The notes under the pieces: generated by a model | Seen by the model: only the letters and a program-made list of their open reading frames with translations | Databases searched by the model: none | Told to the model about the DNA's origin: nothing | Shown: piece after piece, positions 5,614 to 14,802 of the stretch | Numbering within the stretch: the first letter of the stretch is position 1 | Layout: the number at the start of each line of letters is the position of its first letter | Made by a program: the position numbers and the translations under genes | DNA from: Prauserella halophila | GTDB lineage: Bacteria > Actinomycetota > Actinomycetes > Mycobacteriales > Pseudonocardiaceae | Assembly (NCBI RefSeq): GCF_024171895.1 | Contig: NZ_JAMTCQ010000009.1 | Coordinates: 471,318 to 535,317 of the forward strand | Length of the DNA: 64,000 nt | Direction: 5' to 3'

Positions 5614-6702
5614 GTGACCGCATCCACCACGCCCGTCCGGTCGAGGCTGCGCGGCGAGTTCCACACTCTGACGGTCGCGGGTGTCGACCGGCTGTGCGAC
5701 GACGCGGTCGCCGTCACGTTCGCCGTGCCGCCCGAACTGGCCGATGTCTACGACTTCCGCGCGGGCCAGTCCCTGACGGTGCGGGCGGTGATCGACGGCC
5801 GTGAGGAACGCCGGTCGTACTCGATCTGCGCGGCGGAGGGAAGTTCGTTGCGGATCGGGGTGCGGGAGGTGCCGGGCGGGCTGTTCTCCAGCTGGCTGGT
5901 GCACGAGGTGCAGCCCGGTGACGAGCTCGAGGTCGGCACCCCGACCGGCACGTTCACCCCTGCGGTGACGGCGGGCAGGCACGTGCTGATCGGCGCGGGG
6001 TCGGGGATCACCCCGCTGCTGTCGATCGCGGCGACCGTGCTGCGGGACCCGGCGGCGACCGTGACGCTGCTCTACGGCAACCGCCGCAGCGACACCGTGA
6101 TGTTCGCCGACGAACTGGCGGACCTGAAGGACCGCTACCCGCAGCGGCTCGAACTCGTGCACGTGCTGTCCAGGGAACCGCGCGAGGCCGAACTGTTCAC
6201 CGGCAGGCTCGACCCGGACAAGCTGCGCGGTCTGATGGCGCTCGTCGGCGAGCCCGGAGCGATCGCCGAGTGGTGGCTGTGCGGCCCGTTCGACCTGGTG
6301 ACCGGCGCTCGGGAGCTGCTCGGCGACGTGGGCGTGCCGGCAGATCGGGTGCATGCGGAACTGTTCTACGCCGGAGACGTTCCCCCGGAACCGGTACGCC
6401 ACGTCGAACAGCGGTCGGCCGCCGACGCCAGCGACGTCACGGTCGTGCTGGACGGCAGGAGCACGACGACGGCACTTCCCGGAGATGTGTCCATTCTGGA
6501 TGGTGCCCAGCGGGTCCGGCCGGACCTGCCGTTCGCGTGCAAGGGCGGCGTGTGCGGCACGTGCCGGGCGAAGGTCACCGGCGGTGAGGTGTCCATGCGC
6601 CGCAACTTCGCGCTCGAACAGTCCGAGGTCGACGCCGGCTTCGTGCTGACGTGCCAGAGCGTCCCGGTTTCCGGCGAGGTCACGGTGGACTACGACGTGT
6701 GA
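5614..6702 (+). CDS. paaE: Phenylacetyl-CoA epoxidase reductase PaaE
   Basis: NAD(P)H-dependent flavin/2Fe-2S reductase that passes electrons to PaaA. An FAD-binding barrel comes first (RRSYSICA, GGLFSSWL), then an NAD-binding domain (GAGSGITPLLSI), then a plant-type ferredoxin domain whose cysteines appear in CKGGVCGTCRAK and, further on, LTCQS. It is 362 residues long and starts at GTG 5614 after AAGGAG. It is the last paa gene here; paaF, G, H, J and K are absent, so the lower beta-oxidation part of the pathway is encoded elsewhere. Confidence 0.95.
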   Translation: MTASTTPVRSRLRGEFHTLTVAGVDRLCDDAVAVTFAVPPELADVYDFRAGQSLTVRAVIDGREERRSYSICAAEGSSLRIGVREVPGGLFSSWLVHEVQPGDELEVGTPTGTFTPAVTAGRHVLIGAGSGITPLLSIAATVLRDPAATVTLLYGNRRSDTVMFADELADLKDRYPQRLELVHVLSREPREAELFTGRLDPDKLRGLMALVGEPGAIAEWWLCGPFDLVTGARELLGDVGVPADRVHAELFYAGDVPPEPVRHVEQRSAADASDVTVVLDGRSTTTALPGDVSILDGAQRVRPDLPFACKGGVCGTCRAKVTGGEVSMRRNFALEQSEVDAGFVLTCQSVPVSGEVTVDYDV

Positions 6703-6959: not shown

Positions 6960-8336
6960 TCAGAAGGGTGGGCTGTCGTCGTCGTGGTGTTCCGGGCCTG
7001 CAGTTCCCGGGTCGGTGGTTTCTCGGTCCGGTTCGGCACGGGCGAGTTGGCGACGTGCCGACACCTGTCGTCCCGGGGCCTGTCGTGTCGGGGCAGTGCG
7101 TGCCGGGTCCTCACGTGCCGGCTCTGTGCGTTTCGGGGCTGTGCGTTTCGGGGTGTGGCGTGTGGGGGTGAGGACGGGATCGCGGTGTGCGGTGTAGGTC
7201 GCCCCGTGCGGCGTCGTCACACGGGTGACGCCGTGGACCGGGTCGTAGCGGGTGCTCCAGCCGGGGTGGTCTTTGAGTCGGTGGTGTCGTCGGCAGCGGG
7301 ACCCGCCGTTGGCGACCGACGTCGACCCACCACCGTCACTGTCACCGCTGTTGGTGGTCCAGGGGTGTTCGTGGTCGTGGTCGCAGTGCCGGGCGGGGCG
7401 GTGGCACCAGGGCATGACGCATTCGCGGTCGCGCACGCGGACCAACTCGCGGATCACCGCGCTCGGCCGCCGCCGGGTGCGCCCCAGATCCACCGGTTCG
7501 CCGGTTCCGGGGTCGCACAACACCGCCCGCCAGATACTCCGCTCGTTGGTCATGATCTCCCGGGCGATCGGGGCCGGGACGGGTCCGTAGCCGTCCAGTT
7601 CGCAGCCGTCGTCGGAGAGTGACAGGGCCGCGTCGACGGGCACGTGGAGATACACCATGGCTGCCGCTTCCGGCGGGGAGACACCGGGGTCACGTCCGAG
7701 TAGTAGGTCGGCGGCCACGTCGGCGCGTAGCTGGTCCAGGGTGCGGCGGTCACCACCGTGCCGCAGTGATCGGGCCATGGCATCGACCCGTGAGTAGCAG
7801 GCGCCTGCCTGTTCCGCTGGCAGGCTCACCTCGAGTGACGACACAGCGTGCTCACCGGGGGCGAGTTCGAGCTTGCGTTCCGCCCGCGCCTGCCGGGCCC
7901 GTTCGGTCTGTCCGTCCGGGTCGGTCTTCTCGACGAGTCTGCGTACGCGTTGTGCGAGGTTGCCCGGCTGCCACGCCGTTTCCGGCGCGTCCGTCAGCTT
8001 TTCCGCGAGGAGACCGTCGACCTGCCGGGCGGTGTCGTCGTCGAGTGGATCGACCACCGCCAGCACCCGCCGTGCGCCGTAGGACTCGACCTCACCGGTG
8101 CGCATCGCCGCATGCAGCTGCGGCATCCGCCGCACCACCGACCGGCTGTCGTCCACACGCCGTTCGACCTCCCGCGTCGACACCCGCAACACCGGCGCCA
8201 ACTCCTCGACCACACCCCGACCATCACCCGCATCCGCCGAAATCTCCGCCAACAGCGACAACTCCTCGGCATCGAGCCGCGCCCGCAGAGCCCGGACACC
8301 ACCGACCTGCTCGATCTTCTCCCTAATCGCATCCAC
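6960..8336 (-). CDS. DUF222/13E12-family HNH endonuclease protein
   Basis: Member of the actinobacterial DUF222-HNH (13E12 repeat) family, whose function is not established; the C-terminal HNH domain suggests DNA cleavage. The DUF222 region fills about the first 300 residues. The HNH motif follows as CVMPWC-HCDHDHEHPW-SRCRRHH with paired cysteines for zinc. The tail is a repetitive Arg/Thr/Pro-rich stretch. I chose GTG 8336 (VDAIREKIEQVGG); an in-frame TTG at 8381 would run back through the candidate SOS box. These genes are often multicopy and linked to mobile DNA, and an IS3 relic adjoins this one. Confidence 0.85.
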   Translation of the reverse strand: MDAIREKIEQVGGVRALRARLDAEELSLLAEISADAGDGRGVVEELAPVLRVSTREVERRVDDSRSVVRRMPQLHAAMRTGEVESYGARRVLAVVDPLDDDTARQVDGLLAEKLTDAPETAWQPGNLAQRVRRLVEKTDPDGQTERARQARAERKLELAPGEHAVSSLEVSLPAEQAGACYSRVDAMARSLRHGGDRRTLDQLRADVAADLLLGRDPGVSPPEAAAMVYLHVPVDAALSLSDDGCELDGYGPVPAPIAREIMTNERSIWRAVLCDPGTGEPVDLGRTRRRPSAVIRELVRVRDRECVMPWCHRPARHCDHDHEHPWTTNSGDSDGGGSTSVANGGSRCRRHHRLKDHPGWSTRYDPVHGVTRVTTPHGATYTAHRDPVLTPTRHTPKRTAPKRTEPAREDPARTAPTRQAPGRQVSARRQLARAEPDRETTDPGTAGPEHHDDDSPPF

Positions 8337-8347
8337 AACACCTATGG

Positions 8348-8367
8348 TATCGAACGAACGATCGATA
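8348..8367. promoter_or_regulatory. Candidate LexA/SOS box before the DUF222-HNH gene
   Basis: TATCGAACGAACGATCGATA contains CGAAC-N4-GATCG, one mismatch from the Gram-positive SOS box CGAAC-N4-GTTCG. It sits 11 bp upstream of the chosen GTG start, over the probable promoter. Several 13E12 genes in M. tuberculosis are known LexA targets, which supports the reading. Motif evidence only. Confidence 0.5.
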
Positions 8368-8521
8368 CAACGATTACACAATCGAGTGACTGGACTATAG
8401 CGGCACGAGCCTGAACCACAATCACCTGCACCACACGGAACACAACTGTCACACCGTCATCACATTCGAGGCGCACGAACGCACCGCCCAACCGAACCGG
8501 CCGCGTAACCGTCGACGAACC

Positions 8522-8576
8522 GGCCCGGCGCCCGGCTGGTCCAGTAGCTGACTGGCCCAGCGCCCGGCTGGTCCAG
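8522..8576. repeat. 23-bp direct repeat, two copies
   Basis: A 23-bp sequence ending GCGCCCGGCTGGTCCAG occurs at 8522-8544 and 8554-8576 with one mismatch and a 32-bp period. No function is apparent. Confidence 0.7.
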
Positions 8577-8679
8577 CGCGGGACCGGCTTACTCATCCTG
8601 GGTGTCTCGACGACCTGCACATCGAGCCGGCAACGCCTCCCGGACGTATACCGGCGAGACCGTGGACACCCTCCCCGTA

Positions 8680-8760
8680 TTCAGAAAACGGGTCTCGTTC
8701 CAGAAAACAGGTCTCGTTCCAGAAAGAAGACCCGTTCCTGACAGCAGGGTCCGTTTCTGA
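8680..8760. repeat. Array of diverging 18-19 bp repeats with inverted ends
   Basis: Consecutive units begin TTC(C)AGAAAACGGGTCTCG: 8680-8697, 8698-8716 and 8717-8734 (AGACCCG variant), then 8735-8753 (CTGACAGCAGGGTCCG) and a terminal TTTCTGA. The first unit and the end of the array are inverted relative to each other (TTCAGAAAACGG against CCGTTTCTGA), so the transcript could fold. There is no spacer structure, so it is not a CRISPR array. Confidence 0.65.
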
Positions 8761-9332
8761 AAGCACCCGACTAATGGGTGGCTGACAAAATGTCTGATTA
8801 TGTTCAGGGAATCTGCGGGTGTACCGCGGTGTCGATCGCTCTCCGGCAGCTGGCCGAGCGCTCTGCCGGTCTGGATGAGCGGGAGCGGAACCTGGGGCTG
8901 GCGGGCTGGAACATCTCGTTACCGACGAGGGGTGGGTCGTCGAACGCGGCACAGGTACGGTGCACGCCGTCGCTGGCCATCGTGTGGTGGTGGCGTCCGG
9001 TGACCTGGCTGGTCGCTCGTGCGAGAACTGCCGCGCAGTGGCCGCTGGCAAATCGGGCAGGCCGCGCATCGAGGAGTCGGATCGGCGGACGCCGCTGATT
9101 GCCCGGCTGTTGCGTCGCTGCAGGGTACACGTGTGATGACGAGTTATAGATCACTTGATTCAACATGGAGCGGTGAATTGAATAACTATCACGCGGGGCG
9201 AGTTCTGGTAGGCTGATTCCGGTGGGTTTCACCGACTAACCGTTAAATGATAATAACAAGACACCTGTGGATGGTAGTGCCAAACATTGTGGAAGTCAGC
9301 TATCCTTATCGGGAAAATTTAGGGCGGGTGCC

Positions 9333-9593
9333 ATGAGTTCCACGGGGAGGCCTCACTGGAAGTGGGGCCATAGAACTCTGTTTATTGCCGGAAACGTGGG
9401 GGTTGTAACCTATGTAATAGGTGGCATGGTGCTATTGTTTGCATTCGGATTTAAGTGCGCATTCGTGCTCCAAGTGACACTTTTTCCGGCTTCTCTGGTT
9501 ATTCTCCTTGTTGGCAGGTTGTTGCGCGAGCGGCAGATCAAGGAAGCAGGATTCATGTTTTCGTGGCGCGACTTGCGGAAAAATGGAAGATAG
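9333..9593 (+). CDS. Small two-helix membrane protein, island paralog A
   Basis: Hypothetical 86-residue protein. A short polar N-terminus (MSSTGRPHWKWGHRT) is followed by two hydrophobic helices (about residues 16-38 and 44-62) and a basic cytoplasmic tail, RLLRERQIKEAG. The gene at 10059-10310 encodes a protein of the same length and layout, with shared P-W-HR, GGM, P-SL and LRE-Q--AG positions, so the two look like paralogs. The start is ATG 9333 after a weak GGGCGGGTG. The codons are more AT-rich than in neighbouring genes, suggesting acquisition. No family is recognised. An immunity-type role toward the adjacent hydrophobic peptide is speculation. Confidence 0.55.
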   Translation: MSSTGRPHWKWGHRTLFIAGNVGVVTYVIGGMVLLFAFGFKCAFVLQVTLFPASLVILLVGRLLRERQIKEAGFMFSWRDLRKNGR

Positions 9594-9705
9594 CGTGAAG
9601 GGGGTTGCTGTAGGAAACAGCAACAGTGGTTAGGCCGCTGGAGTGGTGGTGTGGCTCCTGATGGTTCGTACTCGATGGGGGTAAGTAGGGGGAAAAGATG
9701 ACACC

Positions 9706-9903
9706 ATGAACTACGTGCACGAGGTGTGGAACTACGATTCGCCTCAGGCGTTTTCCGAGATATGGGTCTGGGTGGGTGGCGCGATCACAGTTGGCGGTGT
9801 TGTGGTTGGTGGAATGCTTACGGGCGGAACTTCTTGGGTTGCTGGCGGCGTTGCAACGGCCGGTGGAATCGGCGCTGGTGCGGCCGGAACCTGGGGATTT
9901 TAG
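9706..9903 (+). CDS. Glycine-rich hydrophobic small peptide
   Basis: Hypothetical 65-residue peptide. A polar/aromatic leader of about 20 residues (MNYVHEVWNYDSPQAFSEIW) precedes a glycine-spaced hydrophobic segment (VGGAITVGGVVVGGMLTGG, then further GG and GxxxG steps) ending GTWGF. Such glycine zippers occur in membrane-inserting peptides, including some bacteriocins and toxins, but no known family is recognised. The ribosome site is poor: AGGGGGAAAAG lies about 13 bases before the ATG. It lies between the two paralogous membrane proteins. It could be an unexpressed ORF. Confidence 0.45.
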   Translation: MNYVHEVWNYDSPQAFSEIWVWVGGAITVGGVVVGGMLTGGTSWVAGGVATAGGIGAGAAGTWGF

Positions 9904-10058
9904 CGGGGGACTTGCGGTGATCGGCTGCACAGATCCGGCGAGTTTCGAGTGGGGTGCCAAACCGTCCAGGGTTCGGGTCACACGCTCTCTTTGCGCACGT
10001 TCAAATGCCCACGTCAGCGAAATTACACGTGCGATTGTCAGGGCTGGATCAAAATTTC

Positions 10059-10310
10059 ATGACAAATAGCGACAAACCAAGATGGAATCAACTTCACAGA
10101 ATAGTTGTGACCGTGGGAGTCATTGGAGGGCTAGTCGGAATTGGGGGAATGTTTGTCAATCTGTATACATCAGGGGATCCGTTCCTCAGCTTCATATTTG
10201 TCGGTGTGGTGTCGCCGGTATCGCTGATGGTCACGACTGCGGGGAAATTCTTACGTGAAAAGCAGTTAAGAGGTGCCGGAATTCGAGTGTCGCGATTTGG
10301 GTGGTGGTAG
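10059..10310 (+). CDS. Small two-helix membrane protein, island paralog B
   Basis: Hypothetical 83-residue protein with a polar start (MTNSDKPRWNQLHR), two hydrophobic helices (about 15-33 and 42-60) and a basic tail containing KFLREKQLRGAG. It matches the 9333-9593 product in length, topology and several motifs, which suggests a duplicated gene. The ATG at 10059 is preferred over an upstream in-frame ATG at 9954, because the extra 35 residues look non-coding and the helix pair then begins at the same offset as in paralog A. Function unknown. Confidence 0.5.
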   Translation: MTNSDKPRWNQLHRIVVTVGVIGGLVGIGGMFVNLYTSGDPFLSFIFVGVVSPVSLMVTTAGKFLREKQLRGAGIRVSRFGWW

Positions 10311-10607
10311 GTCGATTTCGGCTGACAAATTCCCTTGCCGGTGTCGCCGTGAGAGTGACGGGTGTAGCGGTTGGTTGCTGCGCCAAGGGTGGTAGCGAGT
10401 TATGGACGTCGGCGGGGTTGTCCGCCGGCAAGGAAAAGGCGAAATGCTCGCGACGTCCGGATGGCGGCCGTCGAGGTCTTTCGCGTAGGCAAGCACGTCA
10501 CTGGCGCCGCTGATCTGGTGGCAAAGCCAGCGAGTGACTGCACCGGAGTTGACTGTGGTGGAATTGTTAGAGGTGCAGCATTCGGCGCCATTGCAAAAAG
10601 GGGATCT
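10311..10607. other. Gap inside the island
   Basis: About 300 bp with no recognised gene. A frame open from ATG 10461 joins the following GRAM-like gene and encodes VGKHVTGAADLVAKPASD and then DCGGIVRGAAFGAIAKRGS. It may be an N-terminal extension of that gene or a remnant. The strong ribosome site at 10596-10603 argues for the shorter protein. Confidence 0.4.
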
Positions 10608-10985
10608 ATGAACGAGTCGTACCCGAAATTTCCTGAAAACTTCCTGCGGTTCGACGATGAGAAGGTTCTTGTTGTTTACCTTGGAAGTCGCAAGCAGAGC
10701 TGGTGCAGGCTGGTCGGAGGGAGGGTGTACCTGACCAACTTCAGGATTATGTTCGGCCCCAATGTGCTGGACCAGTTTCTTGCGGCAAAAGGATGGTGGA
10801 GTTTGCGTAAGGATGTGAGTGGCGTAAGCTCTGTCGGGCGAAAATGGAGCGATTTGCTGGGTGGTGGTGCACGCAAGAGGATGAAGGTGTCGTTCCGTGA
10901 TGCACCGAGTGAGCTATTTATTGTAAACGGTCCGGATAAGATCGTCGAGGAGGTTGAGCGATGGAGATCGGATCTCGATAGTTGA
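10608..10985 (+). CDS. GRAM/PH-like domain protein
   Basis: A 125-residue cytosolic protein without signal or membrane helix. The segment GGRVYLTNFRIMFGPNVLDQF, then WWSLRKDVSGVSSVGR and later FIVNGPDKIVEEVERW follow the pattern of GRAM/PH-like domains (x-G-x-L-x-LTN-x-R-h-x-F-x-P-N). These usually bind membranes or phosphoinositide-like ligands in eukaryotes; the bacterial versions are poorly understood. The start is ATG 10608 after AAAAGGGGA, the best ribosome site in the island. It is the last island gene and faces the convergent kinase operon. Confidence 0.6.
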   Translation: MNESYPKFPENFLRFDDEKVLVVYLGSRKQSWCRLVGGRVYLTNFRIMFGPNVLDQFLAAKGWWSLRKDVSGVSSVGRKWSDLLGGGARKRMKVSFRDAPSELFIVNGPDKIVEEVERWRSDLDS

Positions 10986-11062
10986 GCCCATTGATCAAGA
11001 CTGCAGATGAATAGGCCACAAATACGGCGCTCGACGCCCGGCCGCGGCGTGAGGGAAGCGAG

Positions 11063-12931
11063 TCAGCCTGCGGGTGGAAGGTTCTTCAGCACGGAATTGG
11101 CGACGGCTTTCGCGTGCTCACACGGCTTGGCCTTGTCGTTGCGCGGTGAGTAGGTCACGCTGACCGTTTCTATCGTGTTGCGGGTCCGGCCGGACTCGGC
11201 CTCGCCGAAGTCGCGGTGTTTCCATTCGAGCGAGCAGGTCGAGCTGCGGCTGTTGGCGTATCCGGTCACCCCGTCGAGCTGGACGGGCTCGACGTCGCGG
11301 TAGCTGCTGTTCGGGCCGAACGAGGACTCGTAGGTGAGTTTGGCGCGCACGCTGCCGTTGCCGTTGAGGGCGTCGATCCGGCACCTGCTCAGGTCGCCGG
11401 CGGTCTTCGACTGGATGACGCCCAGTTTCGACCTCACGGCGTCGTCGTCGACCAGCGAGCAGAGGTTCGTCCGCGCCAGGCTGTTGTCGGGGAGGTTCTG
11501 CACCGGCGGTTCCGTGCGCAGCTTGTCGACCACCAGGTCCAGCGCCGGAGTCAGCTGGTCGCACAGCGCGGATTCGCCGGACACGTCGACCGTGATCGCC
11601 TGCTGCGGCGACGACGGCGAGGCGACCGACCGGTTGCAGCCGGAGCTGGTGCTCTCCTCCAGCACGGCCTGGCCCGCGACCTGCTCGCCGGTGGTGTTCA
11701 TCCGCGAGCGGTCGATCGATACCCCGAGTTCGAGGTCGATCGAGTCGGAACTGAACCCGCCCTGACCGAAGCGGCACCGGTGCAGGTACGTCGAGTAGCC
11801 GGACGGCTGCAGCGTCGTCTCGCCGAGGGTCTCGTCCTCGAGCAGAGCGCACGGGTCGATGTCGCGCAGCCGGTCGATGCTCAGCGCCTGCGCGACCGGT
11901 GCGCGGGTCTCCGGCTCGATCACCGTGCCCTCGACTGGCGCCAGTCCCTGCGTGACCGCGAGGGCCACCACGGCCGCTCCCGCTGCGATCACGGCCGTCA
12001 CCTTCGGCCAGCGTGGCTTGCGCGGCGGAGGGGGCGGCTCGGGCGGCGGCAGAGCCAGCACGTGCCGGACCTCCGCCTCCTGCGTGTTGATCAGCTGCTG
12101 GACGGGGGCCGGCCAGACGGGACCGTCGTGATCGATCGGCCCGACCAGGTCGAGCAGCTGCGCCGGCGTCGGCCGGGCCTCCGGATCGTGGGCCAGGCAG
12201 GCCTCGATCACCGGCACGATCTCCGGTGGCACCCCGTCGAGCTGTGGCGGCTCGTGCACCACGTTGTACAGGGTCTGCGCGGCGGTCGTCCCGGTGAAAG
12301 GGCCCTGGCCGGTCGCGGCCATGACCAGCAGCGTGCCCAGCGAGAACACGTCGCTCGCGGGGGTGAGGTCCTTGCCCTCGGCCTGTTCGGGCGACATGTA
12401 CGCGGGCGATCCGACGACCGTGCCGGTGCTGGTGAACTCTGCGCCCTCGGCGGCGCGGGCGATGCCGAAGTCGATTACGCGCGGGCCGTCGGAGGTGAGC
12501 AGGACGTTGCCCGGCTTGAGGTCGCGGTGGATCAGTCCGGCGCGGTGCACGTCCGACAACGCGGTGGCCAACCCCGCGATCAGCCTGCGCATCGACTGCA
12601 CCGGCAGCGGCCCGGACTCGTCGATCGCGTCCCGCAGCGACGGTCCCGCCACGTACACCGACGCCAGCCACGGGGCCTCGGCCTCGGGATCGGCGTCCAT
12701 GACGGCGGCGGTGTAGGCACCGGACACCCGGCGCGAGGCCTCGACCTCCTGCCGGAACCGCACCCGGAAGCCGTCGTCCTTCGAGAAGCCGGGGTGGATG
12801 CGCTTGACGGCGGCGACCCGGCCGTCCTGGCTCAGGCACAGGAACACCTGGCCCATGGCGCCCTCACCGAGCAGCACCAGCGGGCGGTAGTGGCCGATGG
12901 GGTGGGACTGGTCCGGCGCGAGTGGCTTCAT
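11063..12931 (-). CDS. Receptor Ser/Thr protein kinase (second of tandem pair)
   Basis: PknB-type kinase of 622 residues. The kinase domain occupies about 15-265, with the glycine loop GEGAMG (22-27), Lys43, HRDLKPGN (catalytic Asp137) and DFG (154-156), all intact. A proline-rich juxtamembrane segment leads to a single membrane helix (about 311-328). The roughly 290-residue outer part shows two Cys-containing repeats (IDPCALLEDETLG and ARTNLCSLVDDDAVRSKLG) that resemble DUF3558-type folds. The start overlaps the preceding kinase stop by ATGA. It probably senses something at the envelope, ligand unknown, and likely arose by duplication of its neighbour. Confidence 0.9.
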   Translation of the reverse strand: MKPLAPDQSHPIGHYRPLVLLGEGAMGQVFLCLSQDGRVAAVKRIHPGFSKDDGFRVRFRQEVEASRRVSGAYTAAVMDADPEAEAPWLASVYVAGPSLRDAIDESGPLPVQSMRRLIAGLATALSDVHRAGLIHRDLKPGNVLLTSDGPRVIDFGIARAAEGAEFTSTGTVVGSPAYMSPEQAEGKDLTPASDVFSLGTLLVMAATGQGPFTGTTAAQTLYNVVHEPPQLDGVPPEIVPVIEACLAHDPEARPTPAQLLDLVGPIDHDGPVWPAPVQQLINTQEAEVRHVLALPPPEPPPPPRKPRWPKVTAVIAAGAAVVALAVTQGLAPVEGTVIEPETRAPVAQALSIDRLRDIDPCALLEDETLGETTLQPSGYSTYLHRCRFGQGGFSSDSIDLELGVSIDRSRMNTTGEQVAGQAVLEESTSSGCNRSVASPSSPQQAITVDVSGESALCDQLTPALDLVVDKLRTEPPVQNLPDNSLARTNLCSLVDDDAVRSKLGVIQSKTAGDLSRCRIDALNGNGSVRAKLTYESSFGPNSSYRDVEPVQLDGVTGYANSRSSTCSLEWKHRDFGEAESGRTRNTIETVSVTYSPRNDKAKPCEHAKAVANSVLKNLPPAG

Positions 12932-14802
12932 GACGTCGGCAGGCCTTCCAGGACGGCTTCGGTGAGCTTGCGGGCATGCTCACACGCGAGCTCGACGGTG
13001 GTGCTCTCGTCGTTGTAGCCCGCCCGGTAGGACACCTCGACGATCTGCGCGTAGTAGTCCGCGTTCTCACCGGTGACGGGAGCCTCGGCCCATTCGACGC
13101 CGCAGTACGTGGAGCCGGTCGAACTCGCCCGCTGGTAGACGTCCTTGCCGCCGACCTCGACCTTTTCGATGCTGTCCGAGGATGATTCCGCCGGGTTGCC
13201 GCTGATCTCGATGGAGACTTCCGCCTCGCCCCCACCGCTGTAGGTGCACTCACGGAGGTAGTCCGATTCGACCGAGGGCGTCTGTCCGAACACGCCCTGC
13301 GCCTGCTGCCTGCTGATGAGCAGGCACGTGTCGACCTCGGCGAGGGTGCGGTAATGCTCGTCCCAGGTGGCCTCGCCCTTGCGGGCGGCCTTCACCGCTT
13401 CTTCGAGGTACTGCCGCGCCGTCTTGCACGGCGTGTAGTCCTCACCGGGATCGTCGTCGCCGATCCGGCGGAGGTTGACTTCGATGCCGTTCGTCGGAGC
13501 CCGCGGGAGCACGACTGTCACGGTGCATCTGCCCTCCTCCGGGCCCCTGACGAGCGTGGTCAGGCCTGCCGTCTGGCCCTCCGTCCTGCCGGAAGTGGAG
13601 ACTCGCGACCCGAGTTCCAGGGTGGCCGCCACGTTGTCGTTCACCTCGAACCGGCACTGGTCGTAGTCGCGCCTGTCGTAGCGCTCCAGGCTCGAGACGA
13701 GCTTGCACGGGTCGAGCTTGCGCAGGGACGCGGGCGCCAGTGGGCCGCTGGGTGCCTCGGTCGTCGGGATCGGATCCTGGGTTTGGGCCGCCACCGTCGT
13801 GGCGGTGCCGGCCTCGGGCTTCGTGACACCGATGAGTGCGGTCGCACCGAGCGCCGCGATCATGATCAGCGCAGTGAGGGCGACCACCAGGCCGCTGCGC
13901 GATTTCCGCAGGTCCGATCCGGCGAGGACGGCGTCGACGTCGTCCTCGCAGCCCTGGATCTCCTGCTGGATCCGTTCGGGCCACGGGTTGTTCGTGGGCG
14001 GCAGGCCGCCGATCAGCCCGCGCAGCTGGTCGGGTGTCGGCCGCTGGGCCGGGTCACGCGCCAGGCACGGGCCGATGATCGACATGAGTTCCGGCGGGAC
14101 CTTACTCAGGTCCGGCTCGCCGTGGACGACGTTGTAGAGGGTCTGCGGGGTCGTGTTGCCCGCGTACGGACTCTTGCCCGTGGCCGCCATGACCAGCAGC
14201 GTGCCGAGCGAGAAGATGTCGCTCGCGGTCGTGAGGCTGCGGCCCTCGGCCTGTTCCGGCGAGGTGAAGCCCGCCGAACCGACGACCGAACCGGTACTGG
14301 TGAGTTCGGAGCTGCCTTCGACGGCGCGGGCGATGCCGAAGTCGATCACCCGCGGTCCTTCCGAGGCCAACAGCACGTTGCTCGGCTTGAGGTCACGGTG
14401 GACGAGGCCGGCGCGGTGGATGTCGGCCAGCGCCGACACCAGCCCCGCGGCGAGATGCCGCACCGCGGTCGGCGGGAGCGGGCCCGCGGTGTCGATCGCG
14501 TCCTGCAGCGACGGCCCCGCCACGTAGACCGACGCAAGCCACTGCTGCCCGGCCTCGGTGTCGGCGTCCATGACGGCCGCGGTGAAGGCGCCGGAGACCT
14601 GCCTCGACGTCTCGACCTCGCGGCGGAATCGCTCGCGGAACTCGTGGTCGTGCGAGAACGCCGGGTGGATGCGCTTGAGCGCCGCGGGCCGTCCGTCCGG
14701 CGCCATGGCCAGATACACCCGGCCCATACCGCCTTCGCCGAGCATCGCCAGCAGGCGATACCGGCCCGCGTACTCCCGCTCGCCGTCCCCCAGGACCTTC
14801 AT
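12928..14802 (-). CDS. Receptor Ser/Thr protein kinase (first of tandem pair)
   Basis: Paralog of the downstream kinase, 624 residues. GEGGMG (22-27), Lys43, HRDLKPSN (Asp137) and DFG (154-156) fall at identical positions. A membrane helix lies at about 304-325. The outer region again has two Cys-rich repeats (LDPCKLVSSLERYD and VDTCLLISRQQAQGVFG) of DUF3558-like pattern. The ATG start lies inside the trpS stop (ATGA), so trpS and both kinases form one translationally coupled minus-strand operon. Pairing two receptor kinases with an aminoacyl-tRNA synthetase is unusual. Confidence 0.9.
   Translation of the reverse strand: MKVLGDGEREYAGRYRLLAMLGEGGMGRVYLAMAPDGRPAALKRIHPAFSHDHEFRERFRREVETSRQVSGAFTAAVMDADTEAGQQWLASVYVAGPSLQDAIDTAGPLPPTAVRHLAAGLVSALADIHRAGLVHRDLKPSNVLLASEGPRVIDFGIARAVEGSSELTSTGSVVGSAGFTSPEQAEGRSLTTASDIFSLGTLLVMAATGKSPYAGNTTPQTLYNVVHGEPDLSKVPPELMSIIGPCLARDPAQRPTPDQLRGLIGGLPPTNNPWPERIQQEIQGCEDDVDAVLAGSDLRKSRSGLVVALTALIMIAALGATALIGVTKPEAGTATTVAAQTQDPIPTTEAPSGPLAPASLRKLDPCKLVSSLERYDRRDYDQCRFEVNDNVAATLELGSRVSTSGRTEGQTAGLTTLVRGPEEGRCTVTVVLPRAPTNGIEVNLRRIGDDDPGEDYTPCKTARQYLEEAVKAARKGEATWDEHYRTLAEVDTCLLISRQQAQGVFGQTPSVESDYLRECTYSGGGEAEVSIEISGNPAESSSDSIEKVEVGGKDVYQRASSTGSTYCGVEWAEAPVTGENADYYAQIVEVSYRAGYNDESTTVELACEHARKLTEAVLEGLPTS

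Follow-up and report, generated by a model that had tools for sequence, protein, structure and literature searches.

A possible orphan toxin-tail and immunity cassette in Prauserella, and the link of a GRAM/PH-like protein family to putative glycine-rich toxin tails

An AT-richer island in a Prauserella genome (G000, 5.05 Mb) carries four small genes, designated A to D, which we interpret, with a probability of about 0.5, as an orphan and partly decaying cassette of a toxin tail and its immunity functions, in which D would be the immunity protein, B the tail, and A and C possibly protective. Toxicity, immunity, the site of action, the roles of A and C and the nature of B as a tail are all properties that we infer. 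No support emerged for a new four-gene system, and the interest of the island lies in the link of the D family to Gly-rich toxin tails: what recurs is the pairing of D with such a tail, without A or C.

In the window (the whole 64,000-nucleotide stretch of DNA analysed), a composition scan placed the island at 8501–11050, limits approximate. Its GC content is 0.53–0.56 over 9001–11000 as against 0.69 for the window, confirming the deviant composition noted in a preliminary description of this DNA, and its GC skew is about +0.25. The coordinates, lengths and starts of the four ORFs given there were likewise confirmed. All four lie on the plus strand, A at 9333–9593 (86 aa), B at 9706–9903 (65 aa), C at 10059–10310 (83 aa) and D at 10608–10985 (125 aa), and since the spacers between them measure 112, 155 and 297 nt, they do not form a tight operon. 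The ribosome site of D, earlier called strong, proved moderate, with AGGGGA ending 3 nt before the ATG and agreeing with the consensus at 4 of 6 positions. The island is flanked on the left by a gene for a 473-aa DUF222 protein (6960–8381) and on the right by two tandem Ser/Thr protein kinase genes (11063–14802), all on the minus strand. Tandem-repeat arrays of the window (7053–7168, 8522–8579 and 8682–8738) are weaker than those surrounding the island in the congener G133 (L021:4369-4501, 5683-5736, 5786-5875 and 6492-6598), which include six perfect 9-bp units directly before A.

The main evidence comes from what stands upstream of D. A six-member profile (E 1e-3) found D homologs in 12 of 390 genomes of the family and, at the same threshold, in 7 of 394 genomes of the class, G000 included, four of the six other class matches reaching only E 1e-6 to 4e-4. 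Upstream of D, seven of the 12 family genomes have an intact or decayed gene whose product ends in a Gly-rich and mainly hydrophobic C-terminus, located next to D or one gene away. The seven partners comprise B, two ALF-repeat UmbC proteins (toxins of the umbrella type), one decayed UmbC-like protein, two mini-proteins and one WXG-like protein. The ALF-repeat UmbC of G111 bears a Gly-rich tail, is interrupted by a frameshift and ends 110 bp before D; that of G024 (1105 aa) directly precedes a D gene that is itself interrupted, and its tail is Gly-rich, less hydrophobic and holds five charged residues. In G764, UmbC coil-like and tail-like fragments recognised by eye lie in different frames before D, with no ALF match there. 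G759 encodes a 126-aa protein (L097:5596-5976) about 30 bp before D; to the eye it has a signal-like and UmbC-like start followed by the tail, like an UmbC minus repeats and coils. In G758 (L099:5714-6370), a mini-protein resembling that of G759, likewise with a Gly-rich tail, continues in frame into the latter portion of a D homolog, a natural fusion that perhaps arose through deletion. The protein concerned in G025 is WXG-like, 394 aa long and Gly-rich at its end (Pfam WXG100_2, E 0.019, under the cut-off), and its gene is followed by those for a 216-aa protein and D. By eye, a WXG100/EspC-like gene, the 394-aa and 216-aa genes and D stand in a row there near an FtsK-like gene (L023:2401-4990), possibly a type VII variant of the tail-D pairing. 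In G111, G024 and G759 the gene directly behind the toxin-tail gene is D; in G000 B lies upstream of D with C in between. By strict scan or reading, no gene with a Gly-rich tail was found before D in G133, G046, G079, G737 and G053, nor upstream of D in the six other class genomes with weaker matches. The preliminary description had proposed a membrane-active peptide with A and C as its cognate immunity or export proteins; the toxin/immunity theme probably holds, and on the evidence of the seven of 12 genomes the best immunity candidate is D, not A or C.

Two controls bear on this association. The strict tail criterion (32 residues that include 9 or more Gly, are free of D, E, K, R and H and have a mean hydropathy of at least 0.9, at most 1.5 kb upstream) picked out 4 of 18 D loci, those of the window, G025, G759 and G758, versus 3 of 629 other stretches (p 1.4e-5), a value that overstates independence because four of the seven positives (G111, G024, G759 and G758) belong to one genus. 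The 629 stretches were taken from the same loci and partly overlap, and all three of their positives are in that of G053; G111, G024 and G764 fall outside the criterion and were counted by reading. The second control consisted of 40 UmbC loci from 31 genomes, taken among the matches listed and regardless of D. None had a D homolog within 2.5 kb downstream, less at contig ends (best E 0.4), and the last 45 residues of these 40 proteins have a Gly fraction of at most 0.22, a mean hydropathy of at most 0.15 and in every case at least two charges. The corresponding values for B and the D-linked proteins of G111, G024, G759 and G025 are 0.31–0.40 for Gly and 0.39–1.12 for hydropathy, the tails of G758 and G764 being outside this scoring. 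A second, intact UmbC of G764 is among the 40 controls and has neither such a tail nor a D homolog behind it. A Fisher test on the tails (4/4 vs 0/40) was set aside because it counts the unscored G758.

D has no membrane helices. Its only Pfam match at E up to 10 is GRAM (PF02893), with 14.1 bits below the gathering cut-off of 23.6; DUF5085, Imm1 and Imm88 gave no match. The likeness to GRAM and bacterial PH-like domains lies in the relatives, six of the nine aligned family members matching GRAM at E up to 1 (best 3e-5), and the window's own D differs in its score under the cut-off. Searched against the PDB, the D profile yielded four weak matches (E 0.5–0.8), all to TFIIH p62, which we take to have a PH fold; the AlphaFold model of D is poor (pLDDT 45) and consists of strands followed by a C-terminal helix. 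The GRAM/PH-like assignment made earlier is thus upheld by the relatives with the window's D itself sub-threshold, and the accessory role proposed with it gives way to that of a better immunity candidate. A pattern-limited contig scan with D retrieved only P. aidingensis and Saccharopolyspora rhizosphaerae. A tentative generalisation, to which we give somewhat less than even odds, is that the D family represents a new class of GRAM/PH-like, helix-free immunity proteins against Gly-rich membrane-permeabilising tails, shared by umbrella particles, a WXG-type carrier and mini-toxins, with B as a carrier-free toxin. The D family would then be a candidate for how membrane-acting toxin tails are neutralised, and its link to the tails suggests exchange of tail and antidote among unrelated carriers, and their survival as orphans in genomes lacking the weapon. 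Within the papers covered by a literature search, no GRAM-like immunity family was encountered, nor any paper joining a glycine zipper with ALF.

B contains a run of 47 hydrophobic residues without D, E, K, R, H, N or Q, of which 16 are Gly. The length of its ORF alone is unsurprising and no proof of a gene, since an ATG ORF of at least 65 aa arises in 23–36% of Markov-simulated spacers of this size. Runs of at least 40 such residues occurred in 0 of 12,000 simulated spacers, and that of B is the sole one in the six frames of the window. The term glycine-zipper peptide, applied to B earlier, holds for its Gly-richness and not in the strict sense: there are 3 GxxxG motifs versus 4.75 expected from shuffles (P(at least 3) 0.93), and a strict zipper, whether GxxxG or the extended GxxxGxxxG, was rejected for want of enrichment. 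B resembles the D-linked tails in composition, hydropathy, absence of charge and neighbourhood. A profile of four tails scored B no better than shuffles of B; in pairwise comparison, 12 of 1000 shuffles did as well against the G764 fragment, a suggestive value from one of six comparisons, and 58 of 1000 against the G025 tail. Matches of B in 34 genomes besides G000 (E up to 0.1, best 9.6e-4) look compositional and were not used. B had no match in phages or plasmids; a phage or plasmid origin of the island was set aside, A and D being also unmatched in plasmids and viral contigs scanned with D, A and B showing no relative. On its composition and neighbourhood, B is a putative detached Gly-rich toxin tail. 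At E 1e-3 no ALF match was found in G000 or the six other genomes of the genus, and because its genome lacks an ALF protein, B has no known carrier. Across the family, ALF-repeat (UmbC) proteins were seen in 94 of 336 genomes, and in 0 of 7 genomes of this genus.

Comparison within the genus bears on how much of the island is functional. The kinase flank was matched in all seven genus genomes, at 79–82% in G116, G133, G033 and G067 and at 67–68% over part in G095 and G149. G133 retains A, a decayed C and D, and G067 retains A and a decayed C; the loci fetched from G033, G095, G116 and G149 yielded none of A to D. By alignment, the syntenic locus in G133 and in G067 lacks a 324-bp segment (9603–9926) that contains B, so that B is missing from both congeners that keep A. 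In the same two genomes a premature stop around codon 9 cuts C short, and most of what follows has been lost. The possibility that the island serves immunity only, with A, C and D guarding against toxins of other strains and B an unexpressed or dead remnant, is a minority reading of roughly one chance in five. It accords with the presence of A and D without B in G133, with the lack of an ALF carrier in the genus and with the constraint on A between G000 and its congeners, but leaves the retained 47-residue uncharged hydrophobic run of B and the decay of C in relatives unaccounted for.

Rather unlikely is a further alternative, that the island is a graveyard of transferred genes with no present function. 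Such decay would fit the uneven presence of the island across the genus, the pseudogene state of C in two congeners, the frameshift in a paralog of A located elsewhere, and dN/dS values of 0.58 for D (G000 vs G133) and 0.72 for A (G133 vs G067). Against it, all four ORFs are intact in the window, A has a dN/dS of 0.28 and 0.29 for G000 vs the two congeners, and D compared with that of G111 gives a pS of 0.78, at which synonymous change is saturated, and a pN of 0.22; A and D look like real genes. Between G000 and G133, A has a dS of 0.75 and D one of 0.18, a fourfold disparity within one locus that marks it as a mosaic; this gap, measured against the G133 locus L021, suggests recombination within the locus.

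We consider it improbable that the genes act as a toxin-antitoxin-like or stress module in which B hits its own cell's membrane under the restraint of A, C or D and nothing is exported. To the eye B indeed lacks an obvious signal peptide or carrier, but D-linked tails elsewhere are borne by ALF, WXG-like or signal-like proteins, suggesting export, and PADLOC matched none of the four proteins. PHROGs and NCBIfam gave nothing useful.

A and C are paralogs, as proposed earlier (BLASTP 29% over 78 columns, E 3e-8), and the motifs P-W-HR, GGM and LRE-Q--AG occur in both, GGM being off by one alignment column. A is modelled as a hairpin of helices (pLDDT 63), which by eye are two membrane helices. 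Clear homologs were found in G067, G133 and G053 (E < 1e-6) and in G759 (E 1.9e-9), those of G053 and G759 being on a different contig from D; of the D-bearing genomes examined, only G000 and G133 have A/C-type genes next to D. Three of the four genomes with a clear A/C homolog also have D, against 0.2 expected (p 4e-4; 150 genomes searched for both, D in 8), with two of the three sharing the locus by descent; five weaker A/C matches (E 0.001–0.01), all in genomes without D, were excluded from this count. Among the 394 class genomes the only convincing A/C match is in G000 itself, and two others, at E 8e-4, sit in frames of more than 1000 aa. The idea that A and C correspond to the membrane portion of G025's 216-aa protein, the one next to D, was unsupported (hhalign probability 2%). 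A further A/C paralog is present in G000 (L073:4808-5066, G000:C2:393307-393565) and G133 (L029:4748-4998, G133:C28) in a similar gene neighbourhood; it is frameshifted in both, and the two frameshifts seem to differ in place as well as in direction. A and C are possible further immunity proteins. The earlier model, in which all four genes form a bacteriocin system, A and C serving as membrane immunity or export proteins and D as a membrane-binding accessory, has gene order and the A/C paralogy in its favour and is nonetheless very improbable, because the complete set, whose absence elsewhere the preliminary description had itself named as grounds for refutation, occurs in no other genome searched, the two congeners that keep A lacking B and carrying C as a pseudogene, and D pairs with Gly-rich tails without A or C.

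Under the preferred reading of an orphan toxin-tail and immunity cassette, the Gly-rich tail would insert into a membrane and permeabilise it, and D would bind the tail or the membrane surface and stop the tail, by analogy with the action of TipE on TelE. B may be a tail without its delivery part, whether as a remnant, as a restrained membrane-active peptide or as a cassette that recombines onto a carrier, and A and C, as predicted membrane hairpins, may add protection. As the carrier is missing from the window strain, the cassette would most probably be an orphan, either retained for protection or decaying.

Of the systems to which the island may be compared, the contact-dependent glycine-zipper system CdzC/CdzD with CdzI, a protein predicted to have three membrane helices (PMC5380434), likewise combines small Gly-rich hydrophobic peptides with a small membrane protein nearby. 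The present island differs in having one peptide and in A and C, which look like two-helix hairpins. No type I secretion genes cdzA/cdzB were found in the flanks, where the nearest genes are the DUF222 gene and the two kinases. A second comparison is with the pair TelE/TipE, described in PMC10434224 as a T7SSb LXG toxin with a C-terminal glycine zipper and a DUF5085 immunity protein without membrane helices that is reported to neutralise TelE through direct binding. Common to that pair and to D with its linked tails would be a Gly-rich membrane-acting C-terminus and a small immunity protein without membrane helices; unlike it, the island belongs to another phylum, D has no DUF5085 match, and B has neither an LXG domain nor GxxxG enrichment. 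The third comparison is with umbrella toxins, from which the island differs in that the window genome encodes no ALF protein, the window flanks scanned hold no UmbA (trypsin-lectin) or UmbB genes, and D falls in Pfam outside Imm1 and Imm88, the UmbD families named in the consulted sections of the umbrella-toxin paper (PMC11062931). These sections predict UmbC2 to be pore-forming and leave the role of the immunity proteins open; they name no immunity protein for UmbC2, to which the corresponding part of PMC13274773 adds nothing. They also place umbD1 immediately downstream of umbC1 in S. coelicolor, and the D homolog of G111 thus occupies the umbD, or immunity, position. The likeness is seen in G111 and G024, where a D homolog stands directly behind an ALF-repeat UmbC, and extends in G111 to adjoining genes: beside umbC, on the opposite strand, is encoded a 167-aa UmbB-like protein with an AVED motif, and an UmbA-like protein of 596 aa combines a trypsin domain (E 9.7e-20) with FG-GAP-like repeats recognised by eye.
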